From: Clostridiales bacterium
GTDB lineage: Bacteria; Bacillota; Desulfotomaculia; Desulfotomaculales; VENG01
Direction of reading: 5' to 3'
Assembly: GCA_016278505.1 (NCBI GenBank)
Contig: JADQBQ010000019.1
Coordinates: 69,098-123,742, forward strand
DNA length: 54,645 nt
Part shown: in pieces, positions 17,938-18,335 of the stretch
Layout: each line of letters begins with the position of its first letter
How positions within the stretch are numbered: position 1 is the first letter of the stretch
Made by a program: the position numbers and the translations under genes
Notes under the pieces: model-generated
The model's database searches: none
Told to the model about the DNA's origin: nothing
What the model saw: the letters and a program-made list of their open reading frames with translations, nothing else

Positions 17938-17966
17938 TTGCTATCTTTCGAGACGGAGTTTATAAT
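17938..17966 (+). promoter_or_regulatory. Sigma-A type promoter of the nif operon
   Basis: TTGCTA (17938-17943), 17 bases, TATAAT (17961-17966). It lies 370 bases before nifH, leaving a long leader that contains three hairpin cassettes. The TTGC -35 recurs upstream of the amt, glnA, glutamate synthase and ANTAR regulator genes. No sigma-54 GG-N10-GC element was seen in this region. Confidence 0.75.
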
Positions 17967-17994
17967 TAAGCCAACTTAAAACAATGTAAACAAA

Positions 17995-18063
17995 GTGCTC
18001 GCTGGTGAGTACAAAATTAGGCAAAGAAGCCCGCTGAGAGGATAACTCTCAACGGGCTTTTCG
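17995..18063 (+). promoter_or_regulatory. ANTAR-type antiterminator cassette nif-1
   Basis: P1: GTGCTC-GCTGGT-GAGTAC (17995-18012). P2: GGC-AAAGAA-GCC (18020-18031), loop with A1 and G4. Terminator: AAGCCCG stem (from 18027) closing with CGGGCTTTT, sharing the 3' arm of P2, so P2 and the terminator exclude each other. First of three tandem cassettes upstream of nifH. P1 has G rather than A in loop position 1. Confidence 0.8.
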
Positions 18064-18129
18064 GTTTTGAGGCAAAAAGCTCACGGGACCTTAGATCCCA
18101 CTGTGTATATAGTGAAAATTAGTTAATAA

Positions 18130-18189
18130 GGTACGTTGCAGTACCAAGGGTATTATGGCGAGGGCGCCGGTATGTATTTACCGGCGCCC
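18130..18189 (+). promoter_or_regulatory. ANTAR-type cassette nif-2 (weak T-tract)
   Basis: P1: GGTAC-GTTGCA-GTACC (18130-18145). P2: GGC-GAGGGC-GCC (18157-18168). A GGGCGCCGGTA / TACCGGCGCCC stem (18162-18189) overlaps P2. Both loops have purine 1 and G4. The stem is strong but followed by GACCATTTAT rather than a T-run, so it may pause polymerase more than terminate. A further GGGGAAC...GTTCCCC hairpin follows near 18203-18222. Confidence 0.65.
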
Positions 18190-18230
18190 GACCATTTATA
18201 ACGGGGAACTACCCGGTTCCCCATACTTAA

Positions 18231-18304
18231 TTACACTGTGGTAAGAAATGCAGGCATTGAGGCCGTTGACAGCCCTTTTAGGGCTTAAACAGGCCTCTTT
18301 TTTT
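18231..18304 (+). promoter_or_regulatory. ANTAR-type antiterminator cassette nif-3
   Basis: P1: TTAC-ACTGTG-GTAA (18231-18244). P2: GGC-ATTGAG-GCC (18253-18264). Both loops carry A1 and G4. The terminator uses GAGGCC (from 18259) and GGCCTC followed by seven T (to 18304), with an inner AGCCC/GGGCT stem. It ends 32 bases before the nifH start codon, so termination here would silence the whole operon. Confidence 0.82.
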
Positions 18305-18335
18305 ATGATCAAAACAAATAGGAGGTTGAGAAATT

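Follow-up and report, generated by a model that had tools for sequence, protein, structure and literature searches.

Control of nitrogenase is usually told as a matter of transcription initiation, exerted either by sigma-54 and NifA or by a repressor. The nif operon that lies within the 54,645-nucleotide stretch of DNA analyzed here (hereafter, the window) raises the question of whether nitrogenase may also be governed by what happens to RNA polymerase once transcription has started. An earlier note, made from the letters of this DNA, placed a sigma-A promoter and three two-hairpin units with overlapping terminators ahead of nifH, pointed to an ANTAR response regulator gene at position 52461, and read the whole as an antitermination leader. 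Anatomy, a covariance model, covariation, and conservation across the order Desulfotomaculales all support that reading. We put the probability at roughly 0.86 that the nif leader, with its three ANTAR units in series, is regulated by a receiver-ANTAR protein, most likely the one encoded at 52461. Because such switches are conserved in the relatives and also precede other genes of ammonium metabolism, nitrogenase here is probably controlled after transcription start.

Promoter and ANTAR units of the nifH leader

The features of the window that are relevant to this question are listed in Table 1. The three units were read by eye and then recovered by a script, in the places given in the earlier note and downstream of the promoter that it had proposed. 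In unit 1, P1 is GUGCUC[GCUGGU]GAGUAC (positions 17995-18012; loops in brackets), P2 is GGC[AAAGAA]GCC (18020-18031), and the terminator (18029-18057) is followed by UUUU. Unit 2 combines the P1 hairpin GGUAC[GUUGCA]GUACC (18130-18145) and the P2 hairpin GGC[GAGGGC]GCC (18157-18168) with a very stable 11-bp hairpin (18162-18189), after which comes GACCAUUUA, a poor U-tract. Unit 3 consists of UUAC[ACUGUG]GUAA (18231-18244), GGC[AUUGAG]GCC (18253-18264), and a terminator (18259-18297) with a 7-U tract (18298-18304). In all three units, the 3' arm of P2 doubles as the 5' arm of the longer downstream hairpin. The claim that the P2 arms overlap terminators therefore stands in full for units 1 and 3, whereas in unit 2 the hairpin is there but a proper U-tract is not, which makes this unit the weaker terminator.

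Table 1. Promoter, ANTAR units, and associated genes in the window
Feature	Positions	Strand	Comment
Sigma-A-like promoter of the nif operon, TTGCTA-N17-TATAAT	17938-17966	+	10 of 12 consensus matches
ANTAR unit 1, nifH leader	17995-18062	+	P1, P2, terminator; scan and covariance model
ANTAR unit 2, nifH leader	18130-18189	+	Scan, covariance model, and covariation in 17 orthologous leaders
ANTAR unit 3, nifH leader	18231-18304	+	Scan and covariance model; GC/UA/GU covariation in the P2 helix
nif operon: nifH, two PII-type genes (nifI1/nifI2 position), nifD, nifK, nifE, nifN, nifB	18336-27144	+	
ANTAR unit before glutamate synthase operon	31863-31945	+	Genes up to 37280
ANTAR unit before asnB	39733-39801	-	asnB at 37854-39698, minus strand
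Two ANTAR-like units before amtB	40257-40406	+	At 40257 and about 40349; first P2 imperfect
ANTAR unit plus second P2/terminator before second glnA	44110-44240	+	Gene at 44316
ANTAR unit before methyl-accepting chemotaxis protein gene	49897-49976	+	
ANTAR unit before 60-aa cysteine-rich ORF	52002-52078	+	
ANTAR unit 5' of the regulator gene itself	52354-52432	+	Predicted autoregulation
Receiver-ANTAR response regulator, candidate trans-acting antiterminator	52461-53039	+	Pfam Response_reg, ANTAR
ANTAR unit before glnA	53043-53128	+	
Glutamine synthetase (glnA), directly 3' of the ANTAR regulator	53125-54489	+	

As the earlier note had it, all six hexaloops carry a purine at position 1 and G at position 4. 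The purine is the canonical A in three loops and G in the other three; no contact of the protein to A1 was found in PMC8934654. The linkers, measured from the full P1 to P2, are 7, 11, and 8 nt long in units 1, 2, and 3, within the narrow range of ANTAR targets, which is 5 to 12 nt in the eut system of Enterococcus faecalis (PMC3369931). Two more palindromic elements are found nearby. A perfect hairpin, GGGGAAC-UACCCG-GUUCCCC (18203-18222), lies between units 2 and 3 and is not kept in the relatives. Just 5' of the promoter, at 17895-17916, there is an inverted repeat, GGCTATTTG..CAAATAGCC, which may act as an operator or else terminate a small ORF that lies upstream.

Chance tests, covariance model, and folding

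Such an arrangement is not expected by chance: among 2,000 dinucleotide shuffles of the leader, none reached three two-hairpin pairs (mean, 0.017), and a strict scan of the whole window returned 8 units, where 60 shuffles averaged 0.03. The earlier note had suggested folding the leader and searching it with a covariance model of the ANTAR target. Our model (R2) was trained on non-nif units only, 15 of them from the ANTAR/glnA loci of relatives and four from the window; an initial MAFFT alignment covering every unit in the window disrupted several P1 arms and did not enter any model. R2 ranked the three nif units first, second, and third within 17938-18335 (E values of 0.00026, 0.00051, and 0.029), with unit 3 clearly the weakest (7.1 bits, E value of 0.029). 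In folding, each unit adopts either of two mutually exclusive states, with free energies for units 1 to 3 of -34.0, -36.8, and -26.3 kcal/mol in the terminator state and of -22.2, -22.0, and -14.8 kcal/mol with P1 and P2 enforced, so that in the absence of protein the terminator has an advantage of roughly 11 to 15 kcal/mol. An Rfam 15 search of the leader gave no meaningful match. Elsewhere in the window, a marginal match to the Rfam family TwoAYGGAY (23168-23325, minus strand) was rejected, as it spans the start of the nifE coding sequence.

Conservation of the leader across the order

NifH is present in 57 of the 113 genomes of the order. We read 50 nifH loci, the window's own included, and obtained 49 usable leaders. 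The scanner detects at least one ANTAR unit in 35 of these and none in the other 14, even though almost all genomes of the order have the regulator. The leaders contain 53 units in the sense orientation and none in the antisense orientation, and none was found after shuffling; several close relatives have three units before nifH. Most relatives also have a TTGxxx-N17-TATAAT promoter just 5' of the first unit. In a whole order of anaerobes, the relatives of Desulfotomaculum, ANTAR antitermination appears to control nif once initiation is past, often through several gates. Among 80 named nifH loci that were fetched, those from Clostridium, Negativicutes, and methanogens had no units, there were a few scattered weak matches elsewhere, and the clear units belonged to organisms of the Desulfotomaculum type, including Desulforamulus putei and D. 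aeronauticus. It is from these names that the order is taken to be Desulfotomaculales.

In 17 orthologous leaders, 97.4% of the cells of P1/P2 and 93.6% of those of the unit 2 terminator are paired, with changes on both sides of the helices, and the covariation score exceeds those of all 500 shuffles and of all slid versions; since shuffling leaves relatedness in place, this result is supportive and not a proof. A scan of the relatives that made no demand on loop letters found G at position 4 in 31 of 41 P1 loops and in 39 of 41 P2 loops. The A:G ratio at loop position 1 in the relatives' units is 34:16 for P1 and 30:20 for P2, in units that had been preselected for a purine.

A nitrogen regulon within the window

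Units of the same kind precede the other nitrogen genes in Table 1, as well as the gene for the regulator itself, and together these genes make up a nitrogen regulon. In the leader of the second glnA (44160-44240), a further GGC[AATGAT]GCC lies inside a strong terminator with no obvious P1 hairpin. All confident covariance-model matches in the 3.9-Mb genome, for the first 150 candidates scored, fall inside the window, and further weak sites may have escaped this search; the weak matches outside it lacked an overlapping terminator in those cases that were scanned. One of the units is followed by a chemoreceptor gene (49897-51386 for the unit and gene together), which suggests that chemotaxis is under nitrogen control via the unit at 49897. 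A further unit precedes a 60-aa cysteine-rich ORF (52115-52297; MTGCPIAYAHPCNSCAQYGNC...) located between a PII gene and the ANTAR regulator; this ORF had no match in the loci of the 29 relatives searched.

The regulator at 52461 and the possible source of its signal

The gene at 52461 encodes, as the earlier note stated, an ANTAR response regulator. The protein aligns along its length with the solved regulators and retains the equivalents of the EutV RNA contacts, R142, K143, K149, E160, Y164 (here F), M172, N173, and R175, a correspondence that was read off the numbering, using the alignment and the contacts in PMC8934654. In all 30 loci, the window's own included, the regulator gene is followed by that for glutamine synthetase. 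Of 27 loci readable by the script, 26 have an ANTAR unit positioned at, or immediately 5' of, the regulator reading frame.

The receiver domain of the 52461 protein has D55, T82, and K104 at the positions of the phospho-acceptor Asp, Thr/Ser, and Lys. In 28 aligned rows (the window's own protein is counted twice), the residue at position 55 is D (13 rows), E (14 rows), or A (1 row), and 17 rows have A or V at position 82. As the aspartate has been lost in about half of the relatives, phosphorylation is probably not the common input of these regulators. No histidine kinase gene adjoins the regulator, whose neighbors are PII, the 60-aa ORF, and glutamine synthetase; an orphan kinase encoded at a distance might still serve it. 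The regulator may be controlled through glutamine synthetase or PII; the AmiR/AmiC and NasT/NasS pairs are analogous in idea. A wider scheme can be offered tentatively, and we consider it doubtful as it stands: nitrogen fixation and ammonium assimilation throughout the order might be wired to a receiver-ANTAR protein that is signaled by the neighboring glutamine synthetase (or PII), not by a kinase, so that the state of the enzyme would set readthrough into nitrogenase via the serial gates. The link between regulator and glutamine synthetase, together with the decaying phospho-site, makes nitrogen sensing by ANTAR proteins a testable question.

The genome encodes three ANTAR proteins, which makes the pairing of the regulator at 52461 with the nif leader likely rather than certain. 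The other two are encoded on contig C14 (L178:3396-9627) by receiver-ANTAR genes about 4 kb apart, each followed by a glutamine synthetase gene; many genomes of the order have two ANTAR genes at a similar spacing. The nif leader might be read by these two proteins instead, or by all three, and with one of them 57% identical to the window's regulator, this possibility, although unlikely, deserves consideration. However, a search around the two genes on C14 returned no ANTAR unit, whereas the regulator in the window sits inside the regulon with a unit of its own, as do most of its relatives. We regard the gene at 52461 as the best candidate regulator of the nif leader.

It is less probable that nif transcription is set mainly at initiation, by sigma-54 with an activator or by a DNA-binding repressor, and that the attenuators merely trim it. 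The genome does encode RpoN, together with many activators of the sigma-54 type. However, none of these activators scores above the NifA cut-off, no -24/-12 site was found near nif when one mismatch was allowed, sigma-54 sites are not enriched in the relatives (1 of 50, against 1.05 expected), and most relatives have the sigma-A promoter closely 5' of the first unit. A search for GlnR/TnrA-type sites returned none at nif, and near matches to the consensus occur in the window at chance level. A perfect match to TGTNAN7TNACA (46390-46406) is located within the second ammonium transporter gene. The view that these are ordinary serial intrinsic terminators, which insulate nif from upstream reading and resemble two-hairpin targets by chance, would account for strong GC-rich hairpins but can hardly be maintained against the shuffle tests, the purine-1/G4 loop bias that appears with no loop demand in the scan, the lack of any antisense unit in the nifH leaders of the order, and the same two-hairpin signature at other nitrogen genes.

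Proposed mechanism

In the antitermination scheme that we favor, transcription of the nif operon would begin at the sigma-A promoter and pass first through the three successive ANTAR units of the leader. When nitrogen is plentiful, the terminator hairpins would fold and most polymerases would halt before nifH, termination being presumably strong at units 1 and 3 and weak at the second unit. Nitrogen limitation is the putative signal on which a receiver-ANTAR protein, most likely the one from 52461, would turn active and bind the emerging P1 and P2 hexaloops. Binding would keep the P2 arm from pairing within the terminator, and polymerase would then read into nifHI1I2DKENB. Gates placed in series could make this response steep. 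The same protein would antiterminate glnA, the glutamate synthase operon, amtB, asnB, and its own gene.

Relation to known ANTAR systems

The hint in the earlier note that triple attenuation at nifH might be novel went too far, as ANTAR targets at nitrogenase genes and nitrogen regulons with multiple attenuators were predicted in 2012 (PMC3369931). Ramesh et al. defined the dual hairpin and predicted ANTAR targets before nitrogenase subunits; Pelobacter carbinolicus has a nitrogenase regulon of this type in their predictions, and in Desulfotomaculum acetoxidans six nitrogen operons together have at least 13 attenuators (PMC3369931); an accompanying commentary lists dinitrogen acquisition among the ANTAR targets (PMC3369936). 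As in the window, the regulons of that study have terminator-overlapping two-hairpin units, several per operon, before genes for nitrogenase, glutamine and glutamate synthases, ammonium transporters, and PII proteins, and given these predictions, the nif leader described here is a further well-supported case of a known system (PMC3369931). In contrast, this genome, an explicit three-unit nifH leader, and order-wide conservation are absent from the main text of Ramesh et al. (PMC3369931). Searches for nif together with ANTAR revealed nothing relevant beyond that study, and in the literature searched we did not find descriptions of the order-wide conservation at nifH, of the autoregulation, or of the tie between glutamine synthetase and a regulator whose phospho-site is decaying.

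The eut operon of E. faecalis, regulated by EutV/EutW, likewise has a receiver-ANTAR protein, a dual hexaloop, P2 within the terminator, and several terminators per system. Its signal is ethanolamine, sensed via the kinase EutW, whereas here glutamine synthetase and not a kinase adjoins the regulator, the phospho-site is often lost in the relatives, and loop position 1 is often G. Compared by description, NitR of Clostridium acetobutylicum is also an antiterminator linked to glutamine synthetase, and in C. thermocellum an ANTAR gene is reported beside the GS-GOGAT genes (cited in PMC4676874); the accounts of these two cases in PMC4676874 do not describe nitrogenase as included.

Among the regulators of nitrogen operons, the 52461 protein has a receiver domain, unlike NasR, which has a nitrate sensor domain. 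At the RNA level, the Klebsiella NasR/nasF system is like the one described here in that an ANTAR protein acts on a two-hairpin leader with a terminator, ahead of a nitrogen operon (PMC3369931).
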